Origin: Patiria pectinifera
Taxonomy: Eukaryota; Echinodermata; Asteroidea; Valvatida; Asterinidae
NCBI GenBank assembly: GCA_029964075.1
Contig: CM057146.1
Span: 6,591,501-6,655,500 of the forward strand
Length of the DNA: 64,000 nucleotides
Direction of reading: 5' to 3'
This document shows positions 11,300 through 59,802 of this stretch, piece by piece. Below the pieces are notes generated by a model. It saw only the letters and a program-made list of their open reading frames with translations, had not been told where the DNA came from and did no database searches. The position numbers were made by a program, and so were the translations under genes. Within the stretch, counting starts at the first letter, position 1. The number at the start of each line of letters is the position of its first letter.

Positions 11300-12445
11300 T
11301 TTGCAAGGAAAGGTACCGTGGAATGAACCACGTTTATTTAAAATCGTGTTTGTTTGGCTCTGCAATATTTCTTTAACTGTCACATTTCACGAAGAAAATG
11401 ATGCAATTAAGTGGGTTTATTTTCTATACTTTCCTTAGCAGAAATTAGTTCCCTTGTACTTCACACATCGCAATTTGAATACCGCTTATGCCCTTTTTGA
11501 TCAGATTTGGATTTTCCTGAGAAAAGGTTTAGATTTGTGCTCACTAAAATCTTTTATCAAATTTCCTTGTGAATTATTTGACCGATTGCAGTGTCAGCTA
11601 TTCAGTTTGTGCACAATCTGTGTCCTTCCGGGAAGGAATCAGTAGTGTTGGCCAGTTTCCCCAACACTGTTCTAAAATGTTTTTAAATTGTAGAGTTACC
11701 TTTTGGCAGAGCTGATTGTGGCTTTCCCCAATCCATTTTGTGATTTTAACCAAATAACCCTCATCATCCCATTAATTGAATATAAATGCTTTGTTGGTAT
11801 AGATGTTTCCAGACCAGACAAGTGCAGCCAGCATACCTCTATAAGATAACCCTCAGGACTCCGAGCAGTTAGCTGAACTAACCTACTTCAACTTTACCCT
11901 CTGATCTGCCAAGCACCGGAAACAAAACTTAATAAAATAAACGAACTCGATCCACTGTATCAGTTGCGATACTCAGTCTCCTCTGCTTACAGGGTTAAGA
12001 CCAAAAAGTCCCTAATCTAGACTACCAAAACAGTTTTCAAAGGTTGAGGCGAAGGAAGGTTTCAACCAATAATAAAGAGAAAAAAGACTGATATTGTCCA
12101 AGAAGCTGGGTAGCCCACAATTGCAAGAATGCTTGGACCGGGTGCAGACTTAAAAGATGTCATATTGAATGACTTGGCGGAAAAACTCGGAAATAAATGG
12201 ACAACGTTGGTAATCCATCTAGAGATCGATTATTCCAAAGTTGGAAACTATGAATCTAACTATCGTACGCAAGAACGCCAGGCTTTTGAGATGCTGAAAG
12301 ACTGGCGCAATGGGTACGTTCAACCGAGTTACCCTGGCAGTAGCGGTGCCGCGGATGTTCTTTGTGCTGCCCTAAAAAATACTGGAAGGAATGATCTGGT
12401 TAAGCGTGTGATGGGTAAGTGTAATCTTGAACCCAATACCAGGGG
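11300..12445 (+). repeat. Segmental duplication D, copy 1 (caspase side)
   Basis: From CAAGGAAAGG, CCGTGGAA through the death-domain exon to GTAAGTGTAATCTTGAACCC, this stretch aligns with 49080-50215 in the same order. The left edge falls inside what is the 5'-UTR intron of the NLR gene (49060-49553). The acceptor aligns too: TATAG before 11803, ATACAG before 49554. The right edge is a MITE insertion at 12440. The promoter itself is not part of the match, so the two genes probably have different first exons. Confidence 0.85.
12129..12414 (+). CDS. Death-domain caspase, coding exon 1 (death domain)
   Basis: First coding exon of a seven-exon gene (12129-24607, 416 residues by my joining). It encodes a death domain at about residues 8-95: ILNDLAEKLGNKW, then EMLKDWRN and the AADVLCAALKNTGRNDL final helix. 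Death domains pair with other death domains to bring initiator caspases together in the cytosol. The exon ends at GTAAGT in phase 1, and the next exon (18888) begins in the matching phase, restoring an Asp codon. The homologous NLR exon starts 19 codons earlier; that position here is ATA and is followed by an in-frame TAG, so this ATG is chosen. Intron 1 is about 6.5 kb and full of transposons. That exons 1 and 2 join is supported by phase and conserved donor, not by a transcript. Confidence 0.75.
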
Positions 12446-12805
12446 CGGATCCGGGAATTATTGCCGGAGGGGGGGGGGGTTCATCAGCAAAAACATCTGG
12501 ACAGATTTTGTTTTCTCCGGACACTTGGCCTCCAAAAATCAATGGGGGCTGGTACCATACTTTCAATGGGTTGGCGCTATTTAAATCCGACAATTTGTAA
12601 CATAGACATATTTGTAACATTATATTACAGAATAGTGTACAAATACCCCCTAACCAAGCTGGCTCTGTCCGTAGTTTGATGAACAGGCGCACATTATTAC
12701 CAGTATCCATTTTTTGGGGTGTTGGACCGGGGGGGGGGGGTTCGCATTATTTGTAATGAATTTCTATGAAAACAAAATAGTTAGCAGCGGGGGGGGGGGC
12801 ATGAA
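12440..12805 (+). mobile_element. MITE, GGGGCGGATCC family, 3'-truncated
   Basis: Begins CAGGGGCGGATCCGGG and follows 42678-43037 internally (TTCTCCGGACACTTGGCCTCC, GGGGGCTGGTACCA, TTGTAACA, GAACAGGCG, G-tracts) but lacks the right terminus. It sits 25 bases downstream of the splice donor of caspase exon 1. Confidence 0.75.
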
Positions 12806-12907
12806 AGACATACTTTTCCTTAAAAAAAGTGAATGATTGGGTTGGTTGTTTCTTTGTTCAGAACTTTCATAATTATGTTATTTAAGTAAAATATGTAAGT
12901 CGAATAC

Positions 12908-15900
12908 GGGTTATTCCATGTCAGACCAACGCACTTTTTTTTACCTCATGTCTTCCGATTTTGATACAAATTGCTGTGCTTGTAGGTCCTCACTAGCAAA
13001 GAATGCAAACCAATTTTTAGCACAATCCGACCCACTATGTGGTCAGGGCAGAAACCTCAAAAACGGACATTTTTAGAGTAAAATACCACCCTTTTGGTAT
13101 AAATATGTCAAACCATGTCAATTTTCATCGAATATATGCAAATTTGGTATCAAATAATAAGAATTGCATGCTCAAATCAACTTTTTGTCAAAATTAAATT
13201 CTGAGAAAAGTGGGTCTCCTTTAATATGTTATCGTGACCTTTGACCCAATTTATGTAATAATGTATTCCAAAAATCAACGAAATTAAAATGACTTGATAG
13301 AGCATGTCTTCCTCTATCAGAATCCACTGAAAATCACTTGGGGTCTTCAAAATTTAGAACTTTATGACTATTTTTGTACAGTTGGTAGGTTACAAATTAG
13401 TCAATTTGTAACCAGGTCGGGTTTCAGTACTTACTTTTACCCGACTGGTTCCTTACTCCAGCATTCATTTCATAACTTCTTAACTTCGTGTTTGTGTCAT
13501 TTTACATGTGAGCAGCCATTGCGATTATGCTTTTTGCCTAGCGCCCTCTCGCGGCCAACTAAACTTTTTTTTACAGCGCGCGCCGCCTAGAATTTTGCTC
13601 AACTATGCGATGGGCGTAGCGAGCATGCGAGTTTTGCATTCCACGCGCTTTGTTCAAATTAGATAGATGGCATTCCGGGCGTTTCGGTATAGTTTTCTTG
13701 TAGGGCTAGGTCCAAAATATTGTTGATTCCGTTCCAACTCTGCTTTGGGTTGACATCTATCTGCCTGGTTCTGCTACTGCTTTGCGACCAGCATTTACAG
13801 CGAGCATTGCACACTCCACTTTTTCTGCAAGTTTTGGGTGCGGCTCCCCGATAGCAGCAAAATAATTATATATCTGGCGTTGCCGGCATTGCATTTTGCA
13901 ATATTTTTGCTGCTTCTACATCGATTTTAACATCGAGCACGGCGAAAACATGAACGTAGATCATCCCAAGTGGTGAGTAAATCCCATGTGTGTTATTTAA
14001 CTCTTTTATGCCTGAAACTGTTTGTGCCTGAATCTTTTTATGCAACAGTCATTTTTATGCAACATTCTGTTCACTGACTGATGTATTTATAAAAAAGGTC
14101 TTTTTGATTTACAAAGAAGGAAACCAGTTTTTCCCAAATTTCTTTGAATTAAATATCGTTAACGTATTTGGATCTGGAAGTTATTCCCATAATTCATTAG
14201 TCATTTATCGTTTATATACATTTCAGATACCATCCTTGGAGTGACAGTTCACCACCCTATCTTCCCTATTTGACTGTCGTTTTATATATACTTAACAAAG
14301 TTATGTTTTTATAGACCCAACAAAGTTCTGTTTTTATATACTCACCAAAGTTCCTAATATTCTTTTGTAAATACTGTACCTGATCTTTTGTATATATATT
14401 GTCTCTATTTGTACTATAAATAAAACATTTCATATTTTTGAGACAAACAGAAACTTCGCTCCACCCAAATCATTTTTTTAGTGGAACCACTCGGACATAA
14501 GGAGAGTGCCCCATTTTTAAACTAACTAATTCCACTCTCCCCGGTTACAAATTTATAGACTTTACGTTAGAAATCCACCAACACAACTTACTGTTCTGTT
14601 TCTAAAGCTACTTAAATTAATCTTGGTTTGGGAATTTCTCATGTTTAGGGCTGATGAGGTCTCACCAGACTCATAATATAAATTATCAGCAATGGCGCAA
14701 CCAGGTTTTTGCTTTTGTGTGTGTGTGGGAGGGGGGGGGGCTCATAATTTGTTTGGTTTCAAATTTCTGTAGAAGATTAAAAAAAAAATAATTACCCAAA
14801 AATCGAACAAACAAATTGGCAACCTTGGAGGGGGTGGGTGGGTTCCAGTCCCTCGTGTCCCCCCCCCCCTTGCCATTGATAATTAGTTATCCAATGAGTG
14901 CGCTTTGAATTTAGGCCACCCCCCCCCCCTTCTCCACCCAGGGGTGCCACTAATAATTAGTTGTCCCACAAGCGCGCTTGGAATATGAAACAATGCAATG
15001 CTGCTATGACCCATGCACCCGATGCACTAAATTATTCCGTGTTCCACGAGCGCAAGTGGGCTAATAAATTTATCTTCAAGCAAACTTGACGTTGAATGCT
15101 TGAGAGTCGATTGTCATCAGCAGTTACTGTTTAGGGTTTGCAACAGCTCTATGCCATACCCAGACCCAGTACAACAGACACACATCCAGGTGAAATTTGT
15201 CTTGAAGGAAAAAATTGCAAAGTTTGTGAGACTCATTAAATTTCAAGAAGCGCAGTGATGAATGAGTAAGATAACTTTGATTGCGATATTGATTAGCCCA
15301 TCTATAGAAACAACAATGTGATTTGATATAATAGTGCACAGCATTGCACCCCAGATATTGAATGTATATGTACATGTATGCATTGTGTTCTTTTTATTTG
15401 CTGCTGAACGGTCCGATACACCATGCACCTACATCCCTCACCATGTACAATGTACGCATGAAGATAAATTCGTTATGGCTCGTGGAACACGGAGAAGTGC
15501 GTCTAATTATCTGTGGCACCGGGGTTTTTTCAATCTTGTACAGAAATTTGACAACAAAAAGCTATGAGCCCCCCCCCCCTTTCAAAAAAGCCAAATTGTA
15601 GGTGCGCCACTGCTGATAATTTATATTATGAGTCTGGCTTTACCTCATCAGCCCTAAACATGAGAAATTCCCAAACCAAGATTAATCTACGTAGCTTTAG
15701 AAACAGAATACATGTAGTAAGTTGTGTGGGTGGATTTCTAATAAGACATTATCACATAAATTGGGTCAAAGGTCACGATAACATATTAGAGGTTACGCGC
15801 CCCCCTTTTCACAAAATTTAATTTTGACAAAAGAGTTGATTTGAGCGTGCAATTCTTATTATTTTAATTCCAAATTCGCATATATTCGATGAAAATTGAC

Positions 15901-16110
15901 GTGGTTTTGACATATTTCTACCAAAAAGGTGGTATTTTACTCTAAAAATGTCCGTTTTTTGGTGGTTTCTGCCCTGACCACATGGAAGATCAGATCGGGC
16001 TAAAAATTGGTGTGCATTCATGGCTCATCAGGACCTACAAGCACAGCAATTTTTATCAAAATCGGAAAACATCAGGTAAAAAAGTGCGTTGGTCTGACCT
16101 GGAATGACCC
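12908..16110. mobile_element. Long-inverted-repeat DNA transposon, 3.2 kb, in caspase intron 1
   Basis: Left end GGGTTATTCCATGTCAGACC and right end GGTCTGACCTGGAATGACCC are inverted copies, flanked by direct ATAC at 12904-12907 and 16111-16114. The inverted match continues for about 360 bases (12908-13265 against 16110-15750) and resumes at about 14560-14700 against 15740-15605. The left arm thus carries about 1.3 kb of extra sequence (13265-14555), which itself has AATTTGTAACC-type inverted ends. The centre (14700-15605) holds poly-G MITE debris. No transposase is recognisable, so it is non-autonomous. A 4-bp duplication occurs in several superfamilies (for example Sola, Ginger, Chapaev); I cannot choose. 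Confidence 0.75.
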
Positions 16111-16184
16111 ATACCCAAAATTTACTCTTCAAAAATAACAACTAGAGGTTGTGGGAACAACCGCCCGGTGTTTGGCTATCGATT

Positions 16185-17600
16185 ATCGCAAACTTCGCCA
16201 CACACATCACCTCAAAATGCATGTTTATATGTATGTTCGACTTTGTCACATGCCGCTAGAGGGCGCGCTAACATTTTATGACGTCACCTGTAGTAATTTT
16301 GTAAAGTACAGCCAATAGGCAGAGACTCATATCGTTCAACACAAGTTAACATCCGTTGCTAATTTCAAATTATAGGCCTAAGGCATTTCCAATTTCGCCC
16401 GGAAGGAAGGGTCACGTAATTTTGCACCCAATACCCAAAACAAGACCCTGCAATATTGTACAATTGCCATAAAACACAAAGGATATCTCTATAACAGTTG
16501 ATTTCATACTGATTTTCAAAGATTAGATGTAGACATTTTTATTTGCTTGTAATATGATACTTGATGACGTAATTGTGACGTCATTAGCAGAAAGCTCGAG
16601 AGCTTGATTATTATTATCTCTCACGTTTGATTTTTTAGCAATTGTTTAAGGTTTAAAGGTCTTTTCATTGTAACTTCCGGTCTGATGACGTCATAATTCT
16701 ATTTTGCGCACAGGTCTTGTCTGCATTAAGGTCGTCATATATTAATTTTGACGTGATTACCGCAAATTTCGCCACACACATCAACTGAAAATGCGTTTTT
16801 GATTTTTTTTTTTTTAACCTGCCGCTATATAGAGAACGTTCGAATATCTCTACTTATATTGGACAAATTCGCAAATTTCTCGACAAACCTACCACAGAAA
16901 AGCTAGTTCACGCTTTCATCACATGCCGCCTTGATTTCTGCAACAGCCTTCTTCTTGGCCTACCTGACTCAACAATCTCCAAGTTACAGCGAGTTCAGAA
17001 CTCGGCAGCCAGATTGGTCACCCAAACCAAAAGTAGTGATCATATTTCACCAATCTTCCGCGACCCACACTGGCTTCCGGTTAGGCAACGGATTGTGTAC
17101 AAAGTACTTCTGATTACGTATAACTGCATCCACGGCCATGCGCCAACATATCTACAGGATCTGATTAACAAATATGAACCTCAACGAAAACTCCGCTCCC
17201 ACTCACGATCCCTACTCACCTGTTCATCGTCATCTACAAGGACATACGGCCAGCGCGCTTTTTCTACATCGTCGCCCACTCTTTGGAACAAACTCCCCCA
17301 AAGCATCAAAGACGCACAAAGTCTGGATCAATTCAAATGCCTCCTCAAAACCCATTTGTTCAATTCTGATTAATTTTTGTCCGATTTTTAATTTTTACAG
17401 CGCATTGGGACTCCGTGTGTAATGCGCTTAATAAGAACGGTTTTATTATTATTATTATTATTGTTATTATTATTATTATTATATTATGTCTACCTAGCCA
17501 GAGACTAACATCGCTGAAAGCAAGTTCATATCTTTTTCCACTTTCAAATTATTAGGTACTTCCGGTTTCGACCGGAAAAAGGGTCACGTCATTTGACGCA
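16185..17600 (+). repeat. Tandem duplication in intron 1, split by a LINE
   Basis: Unit A (about 16185-16430: CGCAAACTTCGCCACACACATC, TGCCGCTA, ACTTTCAAAT-like, CGGAAGG, GGGTCACGT) recurs as unit B in two pieces, 16755-16840 and 17485-17600. The LINE fragment 16853-17480 lies between the pieces, so the duplication came first. Four perfect TGACGTCA palindromes lie in and beside these units. Confidence 0.7.
16853..17373 (+). pseudogene. CR1/L2-like LINE, C-terminal pol fragment
   Basis: One frame runs from YIGQIRKFLDKPTTEKLVHAF through RLDFCNSLLLGLP, RVQNSAARLVT, HWLPVRQRIVYKVLLITY, GHAPTYLQDLI, RAFSTSSPTLWNKLP to KTHLFNSD and stop. These blocks typify the region after the reverse transcriptase in CR1/L2-type elements. 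It is followed by a GCGC-containing 3' end and an ATT microsatellite (17440-17480), the usual tail. The 5' part is absent. No frameshift in the piece kept, so the insertion is not very old. Confidence 0.85.
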
Positions 17601-18060
17601 CCAGATAAAATGAATATCATGTGTTATCATATCGATTTCCGCAAAATTCAAGTTCCGGCTTCTCAAGGTTGATTATATTTTTTATATTTAATTTCAAGGT
17701 TGAATTTACTAATCTTTCAAGTGACGTCACGTGACCCATGATGATGTCATCATGACGTAATTACAAAAAGCACATCTTCAGTGGGTTGTTCATTCATGTA
17801 TTGATAATTGAAGTTCATATATTATGTTTTCATTTTGACAAACAGTTCTGGAGAAGAATTTGCTGAGAAGAAAACAAAGAATGGGACTTTCTTAATTAAT
17901 ACAAAAGCAATAGGTGTTGGGCTCATAGCCAAACACCTAATTAAATATGTACCAAAATATGGTAAGAATTATATTAGACGGCAGCTGATTTATGTAAATT
18001 ATAGGCACCTCTTCCAAAAAATATTTCACATGTCACATATTCTAGCAGTGTGGCACGGGT
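17601..18060. other. Intron 1, unassigned; spurious exon-like stretch
   Basis: A stretch at 17846-17961 has AG before it and GTAAGA after it, but its phase does not fit the neighbouring caspase exons and I recognise no domain. Otherwise plain intron. Confidence 0.4.
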
Positions 18061-18745
18061 TCTTATCCTAGGGCCGTGGAGGAGTGGGGGTTGCATGATA
18101 CAGTGGGGGTACCATGCTGAAAGGTTTACATGTTTTTTTTCACCGGACACCCGGCCTCTGTAAAATTAAAAAGTGTTTTAAATCGTTACATTCACTGTGT
18201 GGACTTCCGAACAAAAGATGTCCACACATACCGGGTATCAGATACATTGTGTGGACTTGCGCACCTCAACACAAGGTTCCCCCCCCCCCCCCTTTCTGGA
18301 AAACAGGCTTAAAGGCATTTTGGGTTAGGTTTATGAAAATGAAGAGAAACACTAAAGGGAATCCTAGAAAACAATTCGGGTTGAAAGAGTTTTCACAGTA
18401 TGAGTTAAATGAGATTTTCACAGGTTTTTCTTAACTACACGAAAACCAAGGAATGTCCCCGATAGGTGTATGTAACGTAAACATGTGTGTGTTTTGGGGG
18501 GGGGGGGGTGGCGGGGGGGTTGGCCATCTTTACATGGGTGCGCTGTTAAAAAGCGCCAAAACATTATTTTCGTGAAAAATAAACACAAAATGAGAAAAAC
18601 ACTAACTTTATGTTAATCAAGTTCAGCATAGTTTACGTAAAGGATTGTGATTTCTTCCGGTTGCCAAATTTTCAGTTGGGGCGACTAGGAGGCGACGATT
18701 TTTTTGGGGGGGGGGGTGCGCCCTTACCCCGTAGCTACGCCGCTA
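18061..18745. repeat. Poly-G/C MITE remnants in intron 1
   Basis: Two degraded elements. The first (about 18061-18320) has CACCGGACACCCGGCCTCTG and C14, related to the GGGGCGGATCC family. The second ends at about 18745 in GTAGCTACGCCGC, with G12 and G11 tracts before it. Complete ends and target duplications are not visible. Confidence 0.5.
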
Positions 18746-18887
18746 ACTCCTTCTAAATATTCCTTCTAGTACTTCTCTGGGGCTATAAGAATCTATCTGC
18801 CAAGTTTGATACTTCGGACCAGTCGGTCACAATTCTACCCGTAAGCCACCTGACTAATATGCATGTCGATTTCTTCCCACATTGCAG

Positions 18888-19066
18888 ATGCTTTGAATGC
18901 TCCACACAATGCAGATGCTTTGAATGCTCCCCAAAATGCAGATGACGTAGATGCTTCCCAGAATGCAGATGGATTGCCTGAAGTGGTCCCCGACTGTGAA
19001 GGTTCCTACGCAGCTCACAAGATGAAGACAGCTCGCCCCACACGGGATATGCAGGATCCAGAAAAT
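18888..19066 (+). CDS. Death-domain caspase, exon 2 (linker)
   Basis: TTGCAG precedes and GTAATA follows. The exon supplies the hinge between death domain and protease, about residues 96-155. It begins with three nine-residue repeats of the form DALNAPHNA / DALNAPQNA / DDVDASQNA, encoded by a 27-base tandem repeat, and continues into an acidic then basic stretch ending QDPEN. Several Asp residues could be cleavage points between prodomain and p20, which is where caspases are usually cut; which one is used cannot be read here. It enters in phase 1 and leaves in phase 0. The donor is weak for positions +3 to +6. Confidence 0.8.
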
Positions 19067-19206
19067 GTAATAGAAGCATAGACTTATGTTACTTCGAAAT
19101 TATACTTTTTTGTAGATGTTATAAAATGCCATTTTGCTTCTTTTTTTTTACCCCACATGACATTGTATGGATTATCTTTTTTGTCTTTTTCCCCCACAAT
19201 TTACAG

Positions 19207-19374
19207 ACTTATCAGCTAAAGTCGAAGTGCAAAGGACTTGCGTTCATTCTAAACAACAGCGATTTCAACCAGTGCCAGCGGCGGGAAGGCTCACAGATCG
19301 ATACGGCAAACATGAAACATCTCTTTAAAGAACTTGGATATGCAACAATTCTCTACGAGAATCTTGAAGGAGAG
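19207..19374 (+). CDS. Death-domain caspase, exon 3 (start of p20)
   Basis: TTTACAG precedes and GTAAAC follows; 56 codons, phase 0 to 0. It encodes the first strands of the caspase fold: YQLKSKCKGLAFILNNSDF, then the Arg of RREGSQIDTANM, at the position of the p20 Arg that helps form the S1 pocket for Asp, then LFKELGYATILYENL. All match family expectation. It is followed by a 2.3-kb intron with the 10-bp-duplication MITE at 19605-20077. Confidence 0.92.
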
Positions 19375-19604
19375 GTAAACAAAAATGGAATAAGCAAACA
19401 GAGCTAGAGGGGCGCTCTCTAACAAAACAAAAAGGAAGAGGCAACCTATATAGAGCGTGCACACATAAAATGCCGATTTTTCTCCTGTACCCAGAAATAT
19501 TCCATATTTTCCGTGTACTATGTCATGTACACCTATCCAGTTCGTAAGTGTGACGTCATTTCAACTTAAACTGCGCCCTCTGCACACGGAGTAGCATTGG
19601 AACC

Positions 19605-20077
19605 TAGACTGGTTCCCGGTCCTTCTATGGTCCTTCGGAATTCGAATATAGGGACAGGTAGCTGGAAGTGAATCCTGAATACATTAGGAGCGTTTCCTCC
19701 TAATGTGTGCAAATTATAGGTAGGACTGACCTAGGTCCGGTTCCCGCACCCTGAATACAAAAATCACAACAATAATGTTAGCTACCACTAATAATGAGCA
19801 AGTTATGTGGGGATGAGCTTCACTATGATTTTTGCAATATTTGAAGTGTCTGAGATAACAATCACTAAAGAGAGGCATTATTTTCAGTGTTTTTAAACCA
19901 ATGTAGTTGAAGGGCTTGAAATTTTCCTTCGTGGAGAGACTGGCGATTTCGCCTACTGGTTATGGCAAGAGTCGAATAATCATACTGCGCATGTGCAGAG
20001 GTGATCCAATCAATGGCCTTAAATTAAATGAGGACTAGCTACCGGTCCCCATAACTACGGGGGCGGGAACCAGTCTA
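19605..20077. mobile_element. MITE with 10-bp target duplication (Mutator-like), caspase intron 3
   Basis: Inverted ends TAGACTGGTTCCCG face each other, and CATTGGAACC is repeated directly at 19595-19604 and 20078-20087. A further ATTGGAACC follows at 20088. Length 473 bases, no ORF. A 9-11-bp duplication fits Mutator-like elements; the inverted ends are short for that group. Confidence 0.75.
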
Positions 20078-20689
20078 CATTGGAACCATTGGAACCAGTG
20101 TCATATGAAAATCAGACTACTGTGATAATCTAGCCTTGACCAAGGCTGTCAAGCTTGTTCCCTTAACGAGCAAGAGGCTGCTAGTGTACAGCTTATTAGG
20201 CTGATTTGTCCGGTACCCGTTGTACTGTACTTTTTATGGCACAGAGCCGCGCACATTGGCCTGAACAATCCCCGTGTTTTGCTTGCCTGCACATTATCCG
20301 CTCCGTTCACAAGTTCCTCCTCACTGCGTGTACCATACAAATCCCCTGGTGTACGTGCGTCACACACAAGGAACGGTGCGCGCGCGTCAACTTGCGAAAC
20401 GTATGTGCCCCGCCCATGGGACGTTGTTGCTAGGTAAAAGGGCGCACACACACACATATCCGTAAACAGTACGTACAGTAACCATTCACCAGTGCAGTAA
20501 ACCATTCCCCAAACGAGGCGAAAGACAGCGCATCCGCGGCTAATTCCTAATAATGTGTTTCTTTACATTATTGGCCGAATTTGGCCGAGTTTTCCTTCTG
20601 CGCATATTTAACATAATGTTCAACCAAAGCCCGTAAACGTTGACCCGCATTTGACAGCTTGCTGCACACATAACAAATTTGCACTATAG

Positions 20690-21060
20690 ACGTGTACAAA
20701 GTTGATTAAACTTTGATGCATAGACCAGTTTTCTAATAAATTCAAATTTATGCACGCATGCGCATAAATATATCGCGTTTTATTTTGCAGTTTAATAACT
20801 TTTTATATTTTTCGCAGTATTGCGGGAAAAAGCAATGCTTATTGATATATTTTTGCAAAAAACACAATAGTATTTCAAAACAACACGCGATAATATTGCT
20901 AATACGCTATTATATGTGAGGATTGAACAAATCTTTTCGCGTTACTTCATAATACTATTGCTCTATTTTCGCAAAATTACATTAATTCGCCGAACTATTG
21001 CGTTATTTCACAAAACTATTGCGTAATTTTTTTGTTTTCGCTTTTAAAACCTGGCACGAA
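20690..21060. repeat. AT-rich TTGCG/TTTCGCAAAA repeats in intron 3
   Basis: Irregular recurrences of ACTATTGCG, TTTCGCAAAA and ATATTTTTGCA in AT-rich DNA. Fixed period is not evident. Confidence 0.5.
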
Positions 21061-21655
21061 CTGGCTTCCGTATTTTATTAAATTGTATATATCCGAGAAT
21101 TGAAAACATTGCTTTAACTATCTTTACAGAACTAGACGTATTATTTCGCAGCTGTCCGTCACATCACAGCGCAGCGTGATTTTCTTGTGGTGCGGACCGG
21201 GCTTTTACATTCGTGAAGAAGGGAGCCCTGCTGATTTTTTCGGGTTTCATGCGCACGGGACGAAAGCATTTTTTTTGTTTTTATTTCGTACCCCCCACAA
21301 ATACTTAGACCTTATGCCCATTTATGCGCATGCGCCATGCTTGCATGAATTTGCATGAATCTTTATTCTTTTGGTCAGCCATTAAAGAGAGAAGACTGTT
21401 TACCATATAGCCCGTACTAATCATCAAAGTGGGCCTATACCGTTGCGTTAAGGCTGTCTTTCGCGGGTGTATGTGTATGACGAAATCACTGGTTTGAACA
21501 GCGCGATCGTCGAATTTATGGTGTCTTTTGGCGGCAAAATATGAACATTCACGTGTTTGTCCCCACAGTTTTTCGTCTGGGTATTAAACCAAGGAATTTC
21601 ATTCTTAGCAAAATATTCGTAATGATGTGTATTCTATCGTTGATTTCCTCTACAG

Positions 21656-21881
21656 GATATCACTAAGTATTTCAAGAAGTTCGCCTCCATGTTTAATCAG
21701 GAGGGCGAAAGTTACGACTCAGCCGTGATAGCATTGATGAGCCACGGCAATACGGGAGTCATTCTCGGCACTGATAACGTTCCAGTGAAACTGCGAGATT
21801 TGCAGCGGGAGCTGGAACCCCATAAGTGTCCGGGGCTGGATGGGAAACCCAAGATGTTCTTCGTGCAGGCGTGCAGGGGAA
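21656..21881 (+). CDS. Death-domain caspase, exon 4 (catalytic His and Cys)
   Basis: CTACAG precedes and GTGAGT follows; phase 0 to 1. It carries both catalytic residues of the cysteine protease: His in ALMSHGNTGVILGTD and Cys in KMFFVQACRG. QACRG is the pentapeptide of most active animal caspases (caspases 1, 2, 3 and 7 share it). Between them PVKLRDLQRELEPHKCPGL matches the helix that precedes the active-site strand. Nothing suggests inactivation, so the product should be a working Asp-specific protease rather than a decoy. Confidence 0.95.
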
Positions 21882-22307
21882 GTGAGTACAATTCCTTCCA
21901 ATTGGCCGTATGAGGGCGCTCTAACGACCCCATGTTCTGGTTACAAACTGTTGAAATCAAATGTATTTTCACACTATTAAGAACTTTGAATAATAGTATG
22001 GGGAGGTCAGACAAAAAGTCGAAGCTTGTATTGGGTCTGTCCCCCTCAGTTATCATGTTTTTATAAATTTTAAATTATAACATTCATGACAAACACAACC
22101 GAGCTATAAATATTACAAAATAATCTTTGAATTAGTGCAAAATGTAAACGTACGTCACTAATCTTAGGATAGGATTTTTCTGTTTTGAAGGCTTGATGAA
22201 TGAATCGACTTGATGTGACTGTATCCATACAATTCTGAACCACTTAAACAGTTTTGTGCACTCAGGGACCAGCTTTGTCTTGTGTTGTCTATGTCCCCAA
22301 AAATTAG

Positions 22308-22454
22308 ACTTTGTTACAACCCTACCTGTAAATCACGATTCCGGTGCCCAAGAATCTAACCAGCGTCATGAAGAGGTAGTCCCGGTACAATCAGACTTCG
22401 TTACAGAAACTGAGGACCTCGTGGATGTACACTTTGCTTATTCAACAACAGACG
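22308..22454 (+). CDS. Death-domain caspase, exon 5 (p20-p10 linker, start of p10)
   Basis: The acceptor is placed after AAATTAG at 22307, which restores phase (Asn codon) and has a pyrimidine-rich stretch before it. An upstream CACTCAG at about 22265 is also in frame and would add about 14 residues, Cys-rich and unlike a caspase linker. The exon carries the acidic linker (ETEDLVDV), whose Asp residues are likely maturation sites, then HFAYSTTDG, the first strand of p10. The GTGCGT donor leaves phase 1. Confidence 0.8.
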
Positions 22455-22612
22455 GTGCGTACTCATTGATCACTAACTCCTTTTTTAAAATTAAATTGTA
22501 CAATGAACATTTTAAGATATATTTGTTAACATGAGTGTTGGATGCAATCTCCACGTATTGGAAAGAAAATTGAAAAAGATGAGATTTGAAAGTTTGGTTG
22601 GTGGAAAGATAC

Positions 22613-23616
22613 TAAGACAAGATAAGTTTGCGGTTGCACCCTGTGAATAAATCTCTTTTCTGACGAAGAACACCGCCCTCAAGAACTCCATCACATCACT
22701 ACAGCACTGCAGCGCAACGGATACTAGCCCAGCCAAGTCAAGACCCAAGAACCATTCCCGGCCATAGGGTCTCCTATACCCCCAAGCCAACTAGTTAGAG
22801 CCCCTAGTTCCATCACCCTCCCCTACTTAGGCACTACTTCTCATCACATCCAGCGCATCCTCCAAAAGCATGGAATTCGAGTCTTCCACACAGCCCCTCT
22901 GAAGATGCAGAACCTGCTGACTTCACCCAAGGATCGGTGTGACCCAGAATGCAGACCAGGGGTGTACAAGATTCCATGTTAAGTATATATCGGCGAGACT
23001 GGTATGGACTTCCCCACCAGACTCAATGAACACAAAGCCCATGGCAGGAAGGGAGACTTCGAGAAATCTTCCATCAGCAAATACACTCCCACACCGAGGA
23101 CCACCCGATCAACTGGAGCCAAGCAGAACTAATCACTAGCATCGACCGCTAGAACCCCCGACGCATCAGAGAAGCCATCGAGATCATCAAGCATAACACT
23201 GTTCCCCAAGACATCAGTTTCTACATCAGCGACATCTGGCGCCCCATCCTCAAGTCAAGGTCCGATGGGTCTCCTATACCCTAGGACAACTTAGGTTCAG
23301 TTCTCGCCTATGGGTCACCTACACCCTGAGCTCCTTCCCCTTTGCCCCCTCACTGTGTACTGACACGCTCCAGTGATCATCCAGCATCCTTCAGTCAACT
23401 TGCATCCTGTCTCAGCTTCACCGGTTTCGAGCTTCACCAGTTTGCATCCTTCTCACGCCTCACCGCACCCATCCCTATAACATCGCATCATCGTTGGAAT
23501 TTCTCATTCTCCTGACGACGGGCAGAACGTTGAGTCCCTCCGCTTCTTTTCAGAACCACACATACTCAGAAAAGAGATTTATTCACATGGTGCTGCCGCA
23601 AACTCATCTTGTCTTA
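22613..23616 (+). mobile_element. Penelope-like retroelement remnant with GIY-YIG domain, caspase intron 5
   Basis: Inverted terminal segments of about 50 bases (22613-22665 and 23571-23616, TTCACA..GTGCTGCCGCAAACT type) bound it. Inside, 22790-23290 encodes a broken GIY-YIG endonuclease: GVYKIPC, a stop, VYIGETGMDFPTRLNEHKAH, a frameshift, then HPINWSQAELITSIDR, another stop and RRIREAIEIIKHNTVP...SDIWRPIL. This is the C-terminal domain of Penelope elements; the reverse transcriptase is missing. CTGACGA near 23512 followed by GAACGTTGAGTC resembles a decayed hammerhead ribozyme of the kind these elements carry. Confidence 0.8.
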
Positions 23617-23833
23617 AATTGAAAAACAAATCAATACGATATTTCTTTAAATTTTGCTTTTTATCAATTGTTATCTTTTTTTATCCTTTAAATATAACTA
23701 ACCTTTTGTACCTGATCGACAGCGCTACAAAATTGGTTTTGCCGAAATTGTATTAATTCGATTTTTGGCTTTATTTATCTTGATTGAAAATACGATGCTC
23801 AAATACCAGCTTTTTTTATGTGTTTGTTTACAG

Positions 23834-23943
23834 GTTATCTTTCTCTGCGAAGTGAGGTCAGTGGTTCCTTCTTCGTTCAAGCTTTATGTGAGGTCTTCTT
23901 CGATCGAGCCCACCTGGACAATCTTGATACACTGATGAATAAG
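23834..23943 (+). CDS. Death-domain caspase, exon 6 (p10 core)
   Basis: TTTACAG precedes and GTGAGA follows; phase 1 to 0. It encodes GYLSLRSEVSGSFFVQALCE and a helix ending DTLMNK. The Arg of LRS is at the p10 S1-pocket position. The residue before it is Leu where most caspases have Trp (SWR), and GSFF replaces GSWF. These changes affect the S2/S4 side of the cleft and may shift substrate preference. Confidence 0.93.
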
Positions 23944-24472
23944 GTGAGAAATTGTGCTCTAGAATGAACGCAGGAGAGTGGGACTCAGGATGCGACAACA
24001 ACAAATATAGTCTTAGCCGCCTGAGAACGATTGCGCCAGAATTGTTCTTTCGATCGACGCCTGTATATAAATATATATATATATATAAATATCTATTTGC
24101 ATTTATGAGACATTGCAATAAGTCACAATTCTGAACGAATGTGTTTTATTACATGCTGCCATAATTAATAATCACAATATTACAACGAGGAGAAGTTGCC
24201 AAATTTCTTCAGTGAACTTGATATTTCTAGTTTATAACAAAAATTGTGTCGCTACAGTGCCTCATTATATCCATGGCCTCTAATTCAAAGTTTTTGACGT
24301 CATAATTTAAAGTTGACCAAGTCAAGGGAGTCGCTAGTTTCCATTTCGAGGAAAGATATCACAGAAAGATGAGAATCATGAGATATGGAACAAAACGGTC
24401 GAGAATGAACTATGTTTTGTTATAATACTTAATTTTCTTACGATATCCCTCTTTTTAATTTGTGTTTCTCAG

Positions 24473-24607
24473 GTTACCGATCGAGTAGACCGCATGAAAG
24501 GCAAACTGTACGACTATGAATCAAAACAATCGGTTGTCGTCAAGCAAACGGTGGAGTGCGTCAAGCGCATGCGCAAAGCTGTCTACTTCCTCCCCAATTA
24601 TCCATAA
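24473..24607 (+). CDS. Death-domain caspase, exon 7 (C-terminus)
   Basis: TTTCTCAG precedes. The exon encodes VTDRVDRMKGKLYDYESKQS, a KQTVEC stretch, RMRKAVYFLPNYP and TAA at 24605-24607. The KQ...LRK.LYF.P pattern is the usual end of p10. The gene is therefore complete from p20 to its stop. No AATAAA lies close downstream. Confidence 0.93.
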   Translation, partial: VTDRVDRMKGKLYDYESKQSVVVKQTVECVKRMRKAVYFLPNYP

Positions 24608-24825
24608 ACTAAATCATTGATTGTAATCTGAAGTTCAACTGAACCGGAAGTTTACTCAATCTACAGTAACTATAGCTTCATTGATACATCCAATATTTTA
24701 CGCAGGAAATGTTTCCTGTTAAAATTCCTTGACTTATCTTCGGAAGCTGGAGAGTGCCAGTCGATAAGGGATGAATATATATATATTTTGGGCGAGAGAA
24801 TATTTGTTTTTTACAGTTATCTGGT

Positions 24826-26390
24826 GGCTGCCACTTACTTATCTGGAGGCCTCAACTTAATATCTTGCAACCGCCACTTAATTTACTGACTGCCGCCAAT
24901 TGTTATGGCGGCCACTTCTTAATTTTCTGGCGGCCGCCATTTAATAATAATGATAATAATTCTTTATTGTACGCATCTTATAAATACGGATAATCATATT
25001 CCATTGGCAACCCAATTACATTAAAACACTAATATTACATCAAACCCCTGTTACATATGTGGGGAAATGGATAATGAATATACATGTAGTACCTTTAAAC
25101 TGATATCTAAACTGCTGCTTTAAGGCGAATTGTTTACAGCACGCACATCACCTCGGGTGCGGTAGTCGCCTTCCGCCAAACAAAAACTAGTTCTGGATCC
25201 TCCTATGTTTGTAACCCTTATTTGATGTATAATTCGTCTTTTGGTGATAACCCTATGTGAATTGAGTTAAGACAACAATTTTGTTAGAAGACTTGGTTGA
25301 AATCAAGGGATAATGCAGATTTACTCACATGGAAATGGCCCATGGATACATAAGTTGTTAAGTAATACGGCCTCTTTCAGCGTCCCTAGAATGGCGTGAG
25401 GAAAATGGCTCACGGTGAGAGACAATTTTATTGAATTTCTGCTTTTATTTAATGTTTTTCCAACACTCTTTGTATTTAAAGGATAGCATCATATTGAACT
25501 GATATCATAGGTGTGGTTTTGGAAGGGTAAAGTCCAGGGGTTAGTTCAGAAAACAGCTGTAATTCTGCGCTCATGTCAGCCGGCCATGTGATCTATTTGT
25601 AGCTATCATCAGTGCGTAGCGTGTACATGTACATTTCTATACGTGGGCTCACGTTGTGTGCGCGCGTCTGGACGTACAATGTACATGAACTTGTACGCCA
25701 ATTATTATGGCGGCCGCTTCTTAATTTTCTGGCGGCCGCATTTTAATATCTGGCGGCCGTGACTTAATATCTGGTTACCGCCACTTAATATCTGGCGGCT
25801 GCCACTTAATGACGGCCTCATCTTGATTATCTGGCGGCCGCCACTTAATCTAGCGACCTTTACCTAATGATGGCGGCCGCTATTTATTATTAGTCTATGT
25901 AATAGACTTTGACGAAGGCCATGGTCTATAACATTGGAGCAGATTCGCTGATTAATTATGCAAGACAACCGCATCTTGACCTCTAGATCAGCGGGCCCTT
26001 TCTATATCGGGTCTTCGAATTCGGTCATTCACCGTTGTCGCGTCATAGACATGGATAAAAAAATACCCTAGACACAGCAATGAAGGCTGTGGTCACGCGC
26101 TCTGTATTATGTTACGCAATACGCGCCCGGCTGTTGCGGTATTACAAAACACTACATTCGAATTGACCAATCACACGTTTAGTCCTGATTTGGGGAATGA
26201 AATGACGTTACGATTGAGTAGAGTCGACTCCGATTGGCTGAGGCGCGAAAGGCATATATCTGCATGCTTTGACATATCACACGTTATACAGGAGACTTGG
26301 CTGGTGATACTCAGACTCATTTAATAGCGGCCACCGCTTAATATCTGCGGCCGCCACTTAAACATCTCAATTATCTGACGCTACTTGATA
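24826..26390. repeat. GCGGCCGC-rich minisatellite, interrupted
   Basis: Units of about 20-21 bases, roughly CACTTAATATCTGGCGGCCG, occur in three runs: 24826-24950, 25700-25890 and 26325-26385. The runs are split by an insertion with a reversed ATT-tail retroelement 3' end (about 24945-25690) and by unassigned sequence (25890-26320). Units differ by many point changes; several contain the 8-base GCGGCCGC palindrome. Confidence 0.8.
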
Positions 26391-26400
26391 GATAGTTGAT

Positions 26401-26663
26401 CATGGGCGTCGCGGGGGGGGGGGCACTTGCCCCCCCCCCTGGAAAAGCAACAACAACAACAAAAGGAAGAACAAAAAAGAAAAAAAAGAAAAGAAAAAGA
26501 GGCGCGAAGACAAAGTGGTGTAAATTTAATGAGTTGGGGGGGGGGGCAAAATGTCCCTGCCCCCCTCTAAAACTGATAAATCGAGAATGTGTTGAGAAGT
26601 ACAAGCATTTTTTGGCCAAAAAAAATGTTGCCCCCTCTAGAAAAAATCATGGCGACGCCCATG
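26401..26663. mobile_element. hAT-type MITE with 8-bp target duplication
   Basis: Ends CATGGGCGTCGC and GCGACGCCCATG are perfect 12-base inverted repeats. TAGTTGAT is duplicated exactly at 26393-26400 and 26664-26671. Length 263 bases; the interior is Gn, A-rich and CAA-rich. An 8-bp duplication fits hAT elements. Confidence 0.9.
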
Positions 26664-26746
26664 TAGTTGATATTATATTTTGAATGATGGATATTGACAA
26701 CCCGTCAAAAAGAACTCAGACTATCGGATAATGCACGCTTTTGAGA

Positions 26747-26816
26747 AGACCAATAGTGTAGTGGGCATCATTCTCGCTTTGACCAATAGTGTAGTGGGCA
26801 TCATTCTCGCCTTATT
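26747..26816 (+). repeat. Tandem duplication, two units
   Basis: GACCAATAGTGTAGTGGGCATC followed by ATTCTCGC is present twice in a row with few changes. Confidence 0.9.
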
Positions 26817-26967
26817 TAAATGTAGTTGGTTTGCCAATAGTTTTGATATAGCCTAGACCAAACAATGACAAATCCGAGTTTGTCGAATATGATTTGCTTT
26901 AGTACATCAGTGTTATTATCATTTTGCATGAGACGAGACTATTTACTATATCGCCTCTGCCTGTACC

Positions 26968-27066
26968 TAACCCTGACCATAACCCTAACCATAACCCTAA
27001 CCATAACCCTAAGCATAACCCTAACCATAACCCTAACCATAACACTAACCTTAACCCTCACCCTAA
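26968..27066 (-). repeat. Telomere-like interstitial array (CCATAACCCTAA)n
   Basis: Seven to eight units of a 12-base repeat, each containing ACCCTAA, the C-strand of the vertebrate and echinoderm telomere repeat, alternating with a degenerate ACCATA half. Later units drift to ACACTAACC and CCTCACCC. Confidence 0.85.
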
Positions 27067-27570
27067 CCAATTATCACAGAGCAGCTGAATCTGGTTATGA
27101 ACGTTAAAATTTGCATCGGTATATTCTGGCGTTAACAATTATTCAATTTCGTTAATATAAAATATGGTGGTAGTCATTAGTTTTCTTTTTATACAGATAA
27201 GCAATGGATCAAGATGTTAAAGCCATGTATTTCCATTTGAGACTCAGCTACAAGATATTTTGTATGCACTTGCTCTAAACCATCGAATCGTAAGATGCCT
27301 TTCAAACAATTCATAGTTATTCCAAATGTCGCTGCCCTCGTTTTTTTAACAGATCAAGGATAGTGGAAGTATGAATGGACTAGCGGGATGAGTAGATGGT
27401 GGAGTCGTTTATATATATATCCCAGCAACAATTCGATTATAAATACATGTATACTCACTATTCGATAAATGAATTAAATATACATTGTGCATGAGTAACT
27501 TTACTACGTGCTCAAGAACACTTATCTACTAACAATCTAGAGCAATCCAGACACGCTAGCACTTCTATCA

Positions 27571-29100: not shown

Positions 29101-29110
29101 CACACTAAAG

Positions 29111-49059: not shown

Positions 49060-49079
49060 GTAAGACTTTACGGTGACAT

Positions 49080-50215
49080 TTTCAAGGAAATCGACCGTGG
49101 AAAGAACCGCGTTTATTTAAAATCATGTCTGTTTGGCTCTGAAATATTGTCACATATGAAACAACAAGTCACCATATTTTTGTCTTTATACTTTTTTTAG
49201 GAGAAATTAGTTCCCCTCATTGATAACGCTCATGAAATAATGCTCATGTCCTTTCTGATCAGACTTGGATTTTCCTGAGATTGTTATTATATATTTCTTT
49301 TTGATTTTACCTACTAATCTGTTTTTCTACGCATTTCCTAATAATAATTTTATTTGACCGATTTGAGTTATAGCTATTCAGTTTGTGCACAATCCCAGTC
49401 CTTCAAGTTTGGCCCAACACTGCCACTGTGCCAGATAGTAGAGTTACCTTTTCGTAGAGCTGATTGTGACTTCCTCAAACCGTTTGTTTTTAACCGTTTA
49501 CCAAATAACCTTTGTCATCCCATTTATTGAACATGATTGTTTTGTTGATACAGGTGTTTCCGAACCAGACAAGTGCAGCCAGCATACCCCAACGAGATAA
49601 TCCTCAGGACTAGTGAAGAATTTAATTGCTGGACTAACCTGCCTCTCGCGTGCGCCAAGTACTGAACAAACCTGCTCGAAACCAAAGGGAATGTAGTTCA
49701 GTTAATACAAGTGTAGTGTTCACGGTTTATTGTATTCAAACGTCCCCATAGTCACCAATCAAAAACAGATTTAAAAAGTTAAGGCGGGTGGCGGGGGGGG
49801 GGGGGTCAGCCAATAATGAAGAGAACTTATGAACAAACTCAGCCTACTGGCCAACCATTAACTACTCCATCCTGTTCAGGCCAGTCTCAACAGGCTCAAC
49901 CAACCGAACCTCGAGGATTAAATGAGAGGATTTTGAATGACTTGGCAGGTGACATCGGAGACAAATGGACAAATTTGGCAATACGTCTTGGGTTCAAGGA
50001 CGCTGACATTGAAAACTTCCGAGCTGACCACCCTCGTTCGCAAAAAGAGCAGACGTTTCAGATGCTGAAAACATGGTGGCAGCGGTGGGATCATCTTCAT
50101 GATGCTGATGGTAGCGGCGCTCGGGATGCTCTTTGCGATGCCCTTGAAAAAAGTGGAAGAAATGATCGTGTTCTGTTTCTGAGACGTAAGTGTAATCTGG
50201 AACCCAAACTTTTAA
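49080..50215 (+). repeat. Segmental duplication D, copy 2 (NLR side)
   Basis: Homologous to 11300-12445. Shared landmarks include CGTTTATTTAAAATC.TGT.TGTTTGGCTCTG, CAGTTTGTGCACAATC, ACCAGACAAGTGCAGCCAGC, the death-domain exon and GTAAGTGTAATCT.GAACCC. Divergence is moderate; the protein products of the shared exon agree at roughly half of positions by eye. Confidence 0.85.
49816..50185 (+). CDS. NLR receptor (DD-NACHT-LRR), coding exon 1 (death domain)
   Basis: First of two coding exons of a NOD-like receptor of 1136 residues. It begins MKRTYEQTQPTGQP, a Gln/Pro/Ser/Thr-rich leader of about 34 residues, then a death domain: ILNDLAGDIGDKWTNLAIRL, FQMLKTWWQRW, and ARDALCDALEKSGRNDRV. ATG is in good context and has no alternative upstream. 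The exon stops before GTAAGT in phase 1. Joining to 56762 restores an Arg codon and runs straight into the NACHT exon, so the fusion is well supported by phase. The death domain should recruit a death-domain partner on activation; the caspase at 12129-24607 carries the closest relative in this window. Confidence 0.85.
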
Positions 50216-56761: not shown

Positions 56762-59700
56762 GTTTTGTGGAAGGTGCGGGACATTTTGACCCCGACCCTT
56801 ACCGCGATGAGTTCATCAGATACTACCAAGACGAGATGAGTGTGGTTCCCTTGCTCCCATGGCTCCCATCTGAGGTTCGTAGGATTAATGATATCTATGT
56901 TAAACTGAAGCTGCAAGAGAGACAGAATGGGACTAGGAAGGTGAAACAACGGAAAGTTAATTCCCACGAGAAAATGTTCGAACTGGAGTATACAGATGGC
57001 GAGCCGGTCAGGTTTATCTTGCTGTCTGGTATTGCTGGGAGCGGCAAGACTACCATCGTGTCAAAGATTGCCACCGACTGGGCAAAAAAGACTAGCTCTA
57101 GACCTAGCTCTAGATCTAGATTAAGATGTAGATCTCCACTCTCCAAATTCAATTTTTTGGTGGCCCTGAATATGCGAGAACTTAAGGGCGTCCCTGATCT
57201 GACAGAGGCTATATATGACCAGATCCTTGCACAAGATACGAAGCTTGGTCGCCAAGCTCTGACCGATTACCTGAGTTCACATGCTGAAGAAGTCCTGATC
57301 GTATTGGATGGCGCTGATGAGTATGATAAAGAGGGTTCCCAGTTGCCATCTGAAGGTTTCATCGTTGACATCATCAGCAACAAGATTCTTCGTGGATGTA
57401 CCGTCGTCGTCACAACACGTCCCCACATGGTGGGCAAGTTGTGCGAGCTCAATCCTTCTTTTATTCATATTGAGACCAGGGGCTTCTCAGACAAAGGAGT
57501 CCAGAAATACATTCAGAAGTTTTTCAAAGGCGAAGATCCAAAGGTGTCTGTCGGGCTGTTTGGGTATTTGAAGGTATCTGGGACTCTTCTTAGTTTGGCA
57601 AGAACACCAATAATGCTGCTGCTCATGTGTCTTGTATGGTCAGACGAACAAAAGCTCCCCGATACATTGACAGAGTTGTTTAAGGAAGCACTTCTTTTCA
57701 TTTTGAAACGTCACTTTCAAAAATCTGGATTGCCAATTCCTGAAGATAAAGGGTTACTTGAGAATCAGTTGAGAGATCTTTTGCAAACTTTAGGAAAAGA
57801 AGCACTTGATAGTCTGATGCTTCCTGGTCAGAAGTTGGTCTTTGAACCTGGGGACTTTGGAAAATCTGAGGCGGTTGACGAAGCTTGCAAAATTGGAATT
57901 CTGTCTAAAGAGAAAATTCGAAGTAAATTACGTGCTGTTGAACGAGTGACTTTCTTTCATAAAACCTTCCAAGAGGCAATTGCTGGGTTTTATTGGGCGA
58001 GACTAGTCGACTCTGATGAAAAGTTGTTTAAATTTTACCTGAGTAAGGTGGGCAAGAGTAACGCCTTGGATATGGAGTACTTGATGCGTTTTTGCTGTGG
58101 TTGGAATGTCAAAGCGGCAGAAACCCTTCTTCCCCACGTCGAAACGTTCGGATTGAAAGCTGAAGTGCCGGATCGCCCTGATCGTTCTTTTCGAGACTCA
58201 AATGAGCCATTCAGGAGGCTTTGGATTTTTATGCATTTCGAAGCACGATCAGAAAAATTACACAGTATTGCCGGGACTTTCTTTAACCATGTTCTTCTGG
58301 TTAAAATGGACTGTGGAAATGATTTCACGTCTGCTCTTAAGTTTCTAGTTGAGCGCGAAGCTTCTTCAGGTCAGTCATTCTTAACCAAGCTGAAGCAAGT
58401 CATTATTCAAGAAGTTGGATCGAAAGAAGAAACGTCACTATCAACGGACATATTAAGATACAGCCCAGAAGTAACAGACGTCTTTATATCAACTGACGGA
58501 AAGGACGAAGAAGTCTTAAACGAGGCTTGCCTTGGCGAAGCACTTTCAAGAATGCAATCACTTGAAAAACTCGAGATTAATTGCTTTCTTGGTTTGAAGA
58601 GTCCAAATGTTTCTGCCATAATCAATCACTTATCCAAGTCCCGTACAAGTGTCAAAACTTTGAAATTAATTTCGTGTAAAATTAATTGCAAGGACTGGGC
58701 GATTTTCATGATGCATAGCCAGCTTCGCGAGCTTGTTGTATCTGTTAGATTGCAAGATTATGAATCTCCACAAGAACTAACTGACATTCAAATTGGAACC
58801 ACAACCCTGGAAGCGCTGACGATAAAACAACTTGGCGAATTCGGAACATGTGATGTACTACGTCTCGCTAAGTCGTATCCGAATCTTAAATCCCTGAGAG
58901 TAGAAGGTGTTCATTTTTTGGCCAAAGACCTCATTAAACCTGTATGTTGCCTACTTTCGACAGCTTCCAAACTGCGGGTTGTTGACCTAGAATGTGTCAC
59001 TTTTGAAAGGACTTCCTTCACGAGCCTTGCCGAACAGCTCAAGAGCCTTAAGGAACTGCATGAGTTGAAACTCACCCTCGATGAATTAGGTTTTCCTTCA
59101 AACAAGCCAAACGAAATTCTATGCACTCTTGCCAGAGATGTCCTGCCGTCATTGCAGCGTAATCTACGTGTCCTGGAAGTGGTCATTCCAAATGAGTCAT
59201 TAGTTAACCCAGAAGCCTTCCTGGCAGTTATGCGGTGGGTTTGCGCTTCACCATCGATGTATGAACTCACATTGTACCGGTGTAAACCAGAGCTGGTCCC
59301 ACAGCTAGAGTTTAAATCAAAATCTGATAGCGTTTACGCAGTGGACGCTATACATCAGCCAACCCAGGGCTCCCTTCAAAAGTTAACCGTCGGAGGGATC
59401 TCGCTCGGCCCGTGCGTGGCAGCTTTCATTGAAAGTTTGAAGCAAATGCCACTCTTAAAGAGATTGGACATGAGGGATATGCGCCTTGAGGAATCCCATT
59501 GGACTGACCTTATGGAGGGTCTCAAGGGCTGCCACCAGCTTCAAGTATTAAATCTGTCTCAAAAGAGCGTGAACAACAGGGTTCTCCAAGGTTTACTAAG
59601 GATAATTCCGAGGCTCCCAAATCTTCAGCGGTTGGTCCTGCCAGTAGAGCGCTGGTCATGTGGGCAGGTCATGGTCCCAGACTGTTTACGTTGTAGTACC

Positions 59701-59802
59701 TGTGAATGTTTTCCTGGTAATGAATATTCCACGTATGTATTTAATAAGCAAGAAATTGAAGCTCTTGTGAGTGTCGTCGAGCCACAAATTGAGCAACAAT
59801 GA
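56762..59802 (+). CDS. NLR receptor (DD-NACHT-LRR), coding exon 2 (NACHT and LRR)
   Basis: Completes the receptor (residues 124-1136) without frameshift or stop. The NACHT ATPase has Walker A GIAGSGKT at about residues 213-220, Walker B LIVLDGADE at about 302-310 and the sensor stretch TVVVTTRP at about 337-344. Just after Walker A, TSSRPSSRSRLRCRS is an Arg/Ser-rich insert coded by imperfect CTAGAT/CTAGCT repeats (57090-57140). Helical domains follow (FFHKTFQEAIAGFYWARLV). From about residue 560, leucine-rich repeats run to the end (LEKLEINCFLG, VKTLKLISC, LKSLRVEGV, LRVVDLECV, LKRLDMRDM, LQVLNLSQ). The last 70 residues contain a Cys cluster, WSCG...DCLRCSTCECF. Such receptors sense microbial or danger signals in the cytosol and oligomerise. 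All nucleotide-binding motifs look functional. Confidence 0.95.

Follow-up and report, generated by a model that had tools for sequence, protein, structure and literature searches.

Death-fold domains assemble on oligomerised NACHT or NB-ARC sensors in other systems and gather initiator caspases. The apoptosome, the inflammasome and the PIDDosome are oligomeric platforms of this kind; they use CARD, PYD or death domains (DDs), mostly with adaptors, and we know of none with linkage or exon sharing of the sort described here. We analysed a window of 64,000 nucleotides from the sea star Patiria pectinifera (C18:6591501-6655500, C18 being contig CM057146.1, in a 613.5-Mb genome; positions without prefix are those of the window). 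The window contains a predicted DD-caspase gene and a DD-NACHT-LRR (NLR) gene that belong to one tandem array, and the caspase very probably captured the upstream region and the phase-1 DD exon of an NLR unit. The locus is a putative member of the above platforms, in which an NLR would recruit the caspase and activate it.

Several parts of this arrangement have been described. Death-NACHT or Death-NACHT-LRR proteins (NLRD) of sea urchin, amphioxus and sponge have the same Death and NACHT domains as the NLR of our window; in the available text of a 2024 survey they are described as receptors, and the echinoderm scheme given there names NLR and GSDME/PJVK, not Caspase-1 (PMC11508797). For amphioxus, the available text of a 2008 paper reports a Death-caspase with cDNA and proposes that DD-NACHT receptors trigger death directly and not via an ASC-like hub (PMC2575513); another reports that amphioxus caspases expanded by domain recombination and shuffling (PMC3196919). 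The Death-caspase combination is the same as ours, but no shared exon, linkage or capture of an NLR unit is described in the portions of these two papers at hand. An earlier note on this window knew of no named system with a linked DD-NLR/DD-caspase pair made from one exon; adaptor-free pairing of DD-NLRs with DD-caspases had been proposed for amphioxus in 2008.

In fungi, the NLR-type STAND gene of the HET-S/NWD2 system neighbours the gene of its cell-death effector, and the N-terminal signalling regions of the two are homologous (PMC3321046, excerpts). Our locus resembles it in that neighbouring genes share a homologous N-terminal domain, as seen from the DD exons and their tree. It differs in that the shared element is a helical DD, here with a caspase, instead of an amyloid motif, and in that upstream DNA of the array was carried along. 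Judged from its sequence, the sea-star locus is like the HET-S/NWD2 kind in its predicted working, not a member of it, the shared domain being a DD. In bacteria, caspases carry fused death-like domains and frequently share an operon with an AP-ATPase, and effector-associated domains (EADs) from neighbouring genes tend to be close relatives (PMC8195603, excerpts); those are operons, whereas in the sea star the genes are spliced and stand in a tandem array. Precedents exist for DD-NLRs, for DD-caspases and for NLR/effector neighbours, but a search of the open-access literature found no report of an animal caspase taking over the DD exon of an NLR unit.

The earlier note had read two DD exons of the window as paralogous, with shared DNA around them. 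Our comparisons agree. Exons 12129-12414 (286 nt) and 49816-50185 (370 nt) both end in phase 1 at GTAAGTGTAATCT and score 38.7 and 42.4 bits against Pfam Death (cut-off 22.6). Their upstream DNA matched at 69.8% over 587 alignment columns (11297-11860 versus 49076-49611, E 3e-65), and a second match spanned the exons (12162-12436 versus 49930-50207, 67.6% over 278 columns). The common DNA totals ~1.1 kb, with a dissimilar stretch in between.

We fetched 100 kb on either side of the window and searched the resulting 264 kb (C18:6491501-6755500) for units. Four DD exons, all in the same orientation, were found within ~114 kb; no further unit was found in C18:6451501-6491500 (40 kb to the left) or C18:6755501-6775500 (20 kb to the right). 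As DNA, the upstream/DD block matched at least four loci in the 613-Mb genome, all in the array (4/4 candidates scored), and a plasmid DNA search gave no match. The genome search comes near to the genome-wide comparison of DDs that the earlier note had proposed. The units are placed as follows:

Unit 1: DD at C18:6528293, NACHT at C18:6531478, lectin at C18:6543168
Unit 2: DD at C18:6585087, NACHT at C18:6587181 (both just upstream of the window), lectin at C18:6593357
Unit 3: DD at C18:6603629, caspase at C18:6610387, lectin at C18:6620707
Unit 4: DD at C18:6641415, NACHT at C18:6648264, lectin at C18:6654747

In units 1, 2 and 4, the upstream block and DD exon are followed by a NACHT-LRR exon with an open frame (981, 990 and 1013 amino acids, respectively) and then by a C-type lectin. 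The unit 1 DD exon ends at the donor GGTAAGTGTAATC, in phase 1 by eye. In unit 3, pairwise blastn showed that the upstream block, the DD exon and the tail are kept, and caspase exons lie where the others have NACHT-LRR. The ~1.1 kb on which the earlier note relied is therefore real but exists in four copies, not two, and one exon duplicated into a pair gives way to a four-unit array in which one NACHT-LRR exon was replaced by caspase exons. The features of units 3 and 4 that carry this result are:

11297-11860, plus strand: unit 3 upstream block, non-coding, promoter/5' region, 69.8% to 49076-49611, shared with the NLR units
12129-12414, plus strand: unit 3 DD exon and predicted first exon of the DD-caspase, Pfam Death, phase 1, donor GTAAGT
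12440-27504, no strand: segment at the place of the NLR intron and NACHT-LRR exon, consisting of repeats, caspase, repeats
18888-19066, plus strand: caspase linker exon, phase 1 in and phase 0 out, homologous to the linker of P0001 and P0004
19207-19374, plus strand: caspase p20 exon 1, Peptidase_C14 at 35 bits versus 21.4
21656-21881, plus strand: caspase p20 exon 2 with SHG and QACRG, Peptidase_C14 at 52.2 bits versus 21.4, aligned to CED-3
22308-22454, plus strand: caspase p20/p10 inter-subunit exon, matches P0001
23834-23943, plus strand: caspase p10 exon 1, 92% to P0001
24473-24607, plus strand: caspase p10 exon 2 with stop, from in-phase join and comparison with P0001
49076-49611, plus strand: unit 4 upstream block, blastn match to unit 3, one of the four genome loci
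49816-50185, plus strand: unit 4 DD exon and first exon of the DD-NLR, phase 1, 87% to residues 1-123 of Patiria miniata P0017
56762-59802, plus strand: unit 4 NACHT-LRR exon with stop, NACHT at 78.7 bits, 1013-amino-acid open frame

At E 1e-8, blastn matched nothing in the segment 12440-27504 to the three NLR units apart from 12466-12770, which matches unit 1 at 67%. The latter is probably a dispersed repeat because 12438-12602 also matches 42676-42860. A search of unit 3 for relics of NACHT-LRR, run up to E 0.5, found none; its sole non-lectin match (28.6%, minus strand, E 0.27) was taken as chance. From position 27505 on, unit 3 rejoins the DNA of the other units. A telomere-like TAACCCTAACCA array of 8.4 copies lies at 26968-27068, ~0.4 kb before this right border; it could mark break repair.

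Both DD exons join their downstream exons in phase, as the earlier note had read them. The seven exons of the predicted DD-caspase (12129-12414 and the six caspase exons listed above) have GT and AG at all junctions and encode 416 amino acids with SHG and QACRG. The spliced model aligns with CED-3 and caspase-3 across p20 and p10, and it is by its catalytic His, Cys and QACxG a predicted Peptidase C14 caspase that would cleave after Asp. The AG acceptor at 18887 is preceded by a pyrimidine-rich stretch. Scanning 11000-18887 for phase-1 ATG..GT[AG]AG exons of at least 40 codons returned only two, the DD exon and a shorter one at 11079-11238 (53 codons). A 27-bp tandem repeat (18876-18971, 3.6 copies) runs across the start of the linker exon and repeats the acceptor CAG in frame, and several in-frame acceptors may exist.

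The NLR exons 49816-50185 and 56762-59802 read in phase over 1136 amino acids and put Death and NACHT in one predicted gene. The same holds for the P. miniata models P0017 and P0018, which have their DD-NACHT junction at the corresponding place; the first 220 residues of our NLR are 83% identical to P0017. The LRR part of unit 4 gave no Pfam LRR match above cut-off, and it is called LRR by homology to relatives, among them P0020 with LRR_4 at 37.9 versus 27.

Where does the caspase come from? Its nearest proteins are from sea stars, and it is 73% identical to P. miniata P0001 over 76% of the query. The relatives P0001-P0008, all echinoderm, passed Peptidase_C14 without exception (8/8) and none had Death at E<=1 (0/8); the brittle-star P0008 also has a CARD (37.3 bits versus 23.9). 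For the other 8 of the 16 caspase hits, precomputed domains only were used, and these are CARD, DED or caspase alone. N-termini differ on a common linker and catalytic part: P0001 and P0004 have short repeats with NPIxVG, and P0003, P0005 and P0006 have a signal- or transmembrane-like stretch by eye. The caspase N-terminus thus looks exchangeable. One or two NPIxVG-ending repeats stand before the linker in P0001 and P0004; they have a small, beta-rich look and are perhaps, at a guess, of the amyloid-signalling sort. In a caspase tree of 8 rows, the window caspase stands beside P0001, P0002 and P0004 (99/99) with an end branch of 0.09; its predicted catalytic part is conserved. In P. miniata, P0001, P0002 and P0004 lie on a 28.6-Mb contig and the NLRs P0017, P0018, P0019 and P0024 on a 46.65-Mb contig, so the two sets appear unlinked there.

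A search for the source locus gave 39 caspase matches from 44 candidates, of which three stretches were read (one on C4, two on C6). Nearest among the three is C4:11458701-11460400 (70% of amino acids in p20 exon 2; best match P0003), and its DNA matches the window caspase at 84% at 21631-21890 and at 75% at 18980-19345, across an intron. On these matches it is a DNA-level relative, not a retrocopy. The two C6 stretches are at 36-47% of amino acids.

The relationship of the DDs was addressed with a tree of 13 rows (four array DDs and nine annotated sea-star NLR DDs); eight other DDs of the genome were fetched, none of them placed in this tree. The caspase DD falls inside the array clade (100/100), beside the unit 1 DD (92/90), and the unit 4 DD joins those of unit 2 and P. 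miniata P0017 (90/86); the supports 92/90 and 90/86 are just under the tool's starred level. The same clade was recovered (100/99) in a first tree, which had 11 rows and left out units 1 and 2. The DDs of caspase and window NLR are thus not sisters. An AlphaFold2 model of the unit 3 DD is helical (mean pLDDT 82, pTM 0.73). By sequence, the PDB entries closest to it are 9tuf (PIDD-CC, E 0.00088) and chain H of 2of5 (an LRR and death domain protein, presumably PIDD; E 0.0015). With the caspase DD as the only query, a database search yielded 178 candidates, none of them at E<=1. Net charges of the four DDs (0, -2, -4, -4) are not decisive. The genome has at least 150 Death-domain matches (150 of 595 candidates scored), often clustered (C17, C20, C22, C422 and C18:22.45-22.51 Mb).

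We then compared the DD exons by the NG86 method. Nonsynonymous divergence (dN) was 0.341, 0.438 and 0.255 for units 1-3, 3-4 and 1-4, and synonymous divergence (dS) was 0.398, 0.597 and 0.651; dN/dS of the caspase DD is 0.73-0.86 in pairs. From these three pairs, ~61 substitutions were estimated on the unit 3 branch, and a neutral simulation (5000 runs) gave a probability of 0.11 that no stop arises. Between units 3 and 4 there was 1 gap opening per 235 aligned exon bases versus 20 per 513 upstream; 17/20 of the upstream gaps, and 13/17 of those between units 3 and 1, were not multiples of three. The gap contrast and the simulation suggest that the unit 3 frame was kept while its amino acids changed quickly.

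What the DNA shows directly is a tandem array with one unit that lacks its NACHT-LRR exon, exons that join in phase, caspase motifs, and an upstream/DD block with no match outside the array at the sensitivity of this search. We propose the following mechanism. A caspase of an echinoderm family whose relatives have other N-termini very probably took the place of the NACHT-LRR exon in unit 3 and, judged from the sequence, uses the upstream region and DD exon of that unit as its own. The DD exon is probably spliced to the caspase, and the DD-caspase would be co-expressed with the neighbouring NLRs. Ligand-driven oligomerisation of the NLRs would cluster their DDs; these would recruit the caspase DD, and proximity would activate the caspase with no need of an adaptor of the ASC or FADD type. 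The anatomy, with unit upstream region, DD, linker, p20 and p10 beside intact DD-NLRs, fits direct recruitment. Direct DD-DD recruitment by the NLRs of the array may occur, at somewhat less than even odds, and we put the explanation as a whole, from capture to recruitment, at roughly 0.5. A bolder version, in which the NLR array built its own executioner by placing a caspase under an NLR promoter and DD as an adaptor-free sensor-protease cassette, is tentative and less likely than not.

Several points weigh against this mechanism. Adaptor-free recruitment is argued from sequence, and the splice from phase and one exon scan without a better exon. The end branch of the caspase DD is long (0.84), which makes its exact place less sure. 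The WWQR motif, present in 11/12 NLR DDs of the tree, is lost in the caspase DD. With this loss and the fast change, it is doubtful that the two DDs are 'matched', as the earlier note had called the pair. Unit 3 is not alone in its fast DD change: the pair of units 2 and 4 has a dN/dS of 1.35 (dN 0.105, dS 0.078). Relaxed constraint on the caspase DD is possible, relaxed and positive selection being indistinguishable here. The simulated 0.11 alone is not significant, the gap contrast between units 3 and 1 is weaker (3 in 247 exon bases versus 17 in 545 upstream, blastn), and part of the frame-keeping history may predate the capture. The gene models P0002 and P0007 are short, and a first exon may be missing from them; presence of a DD-caspase in P. 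miniata was judged from annotated proteins only. The genome DNA search skips very common words, which makes four loci a lower bound. Lastly, lectin matches also occur outside the four units, and the mechanism does not account for the lectin neighbours.

Among the alternatives, the one that fares best accepts the DD-caspase but has its DD meet other DD proteins, or has it interfere with NLR assemblies as a decoy or an inhibitor. The fast DD change, the loss of WWQR and the at least 150 Death-domain matches of the genome speak for it, but the nearest DD kin found are the NLRs of the array, and a conserved catalytic domain is ill-suited to a catalytically dead decoy; we consider it unlikely. Slightly more unlikely is that the unit 3 DD exon is a leftover of the lost NLR, the caspase starting at another first exon or within the linker. 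P0002 of P. miniata does begin within the linker, at MKTAQP, the unit 3 DD has a high dN, and the intron of 6.5 kb after the DD exon contains repeats. However, the acceptor at 18887 calls for an exon before it, the DD exon exceeds the other candidate in length, its frame is intact after the estimated substitutions with few indels, and no convincing match to a first exon of the P0001/P0004 type was found upstream of the linker. A dedicated sister-DD pair from one duplicated exon, as the earlier note proposed from the common 1.1 kb and donor, is very improbable, its strict form being contradicted by the 13-row tree and the four-locus DNA search. A misjoin of the caspase segment into the array is scarcely credible: the segment contains inverted repeats, but it lies on a 24-Mb contig, and the upstream block, DD exon and tail of unit 3 are diverged array copies, as in an old unit.

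The remaining features of the window lie around these genes:

1-4753, no strand: unit 2 tail at the left edge, with block 1-1533 and lectin fragments 1857-2138 (plus) and 4268-4753 (minus)
27505-29641, plus strand: unit 3 tail with a broken C-type lectin copy, pieces of the tail 77-85% to the three NLR units, Lectin_C at 32 bits
52313-55700, minus strand: non-LTR retrotransposon in the NLR intron, endonuclease and reverse transcriptase (RT) pieces with interrupted frames, RVT_1 above cut-off in one piece and endonuclease below cut-off
61193-63696, plus strand: unit 4 tail, Lectin_C at 56.9 bits, self-matches to 27720-29641 and 1-1533

Every unit has a C-type lectin copy after it; unit 4 has an open copy, units 1 and 3 have broken ones, and unit 2 has fragments. 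The unit 4 lectin frame (63046-63696) is open with a signal-peptide-like start by eye, and that of unit 3 stops after 109 amino acids. A fusion of NLR and lectin was considered, since P0017, P0018 and P0024 end in lectin, but it was rejected: in units 1, 2 and 4 the NLR frame stops inside the LRR exon, and in unit 4 the lectin begins with a signal-like sequence of its own. The fusions in P. miniata, whose junctions fall at different LRR points, are probable gene-model artefacts with a neighbouring lectin gene. Lectin copies and retroelements lie between the caspase gene and the unit 4 NLR gene; RT/RNaseH/integrase pieces, which we take to be Ty3-like, are found at 34083-36918. An inverted pair of ~0.7-kb stretches, 89.5% alike, lies at 8711-10394, with short repeated peptides in its frames.

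How sensors and effectors come to have matching docking domains is an open question. Capture of the first exon of an NLR unit is one possible route, and here it is readable from the DNA with the sister units adjacent. If true, the array would be an animal parallel, independently reached, to HET-S/NWD2 and to the bacterial death-domain operons as those are described in the excerpts cited above. Should the DDs bind, the array would offer an NLR-caspase pair of minimal form in an animal, free of ASC and FADD; it would also be a candidate for the NLR-caspase link that is missing in echinoderms, as far as the available text of the 2024 survey goes.

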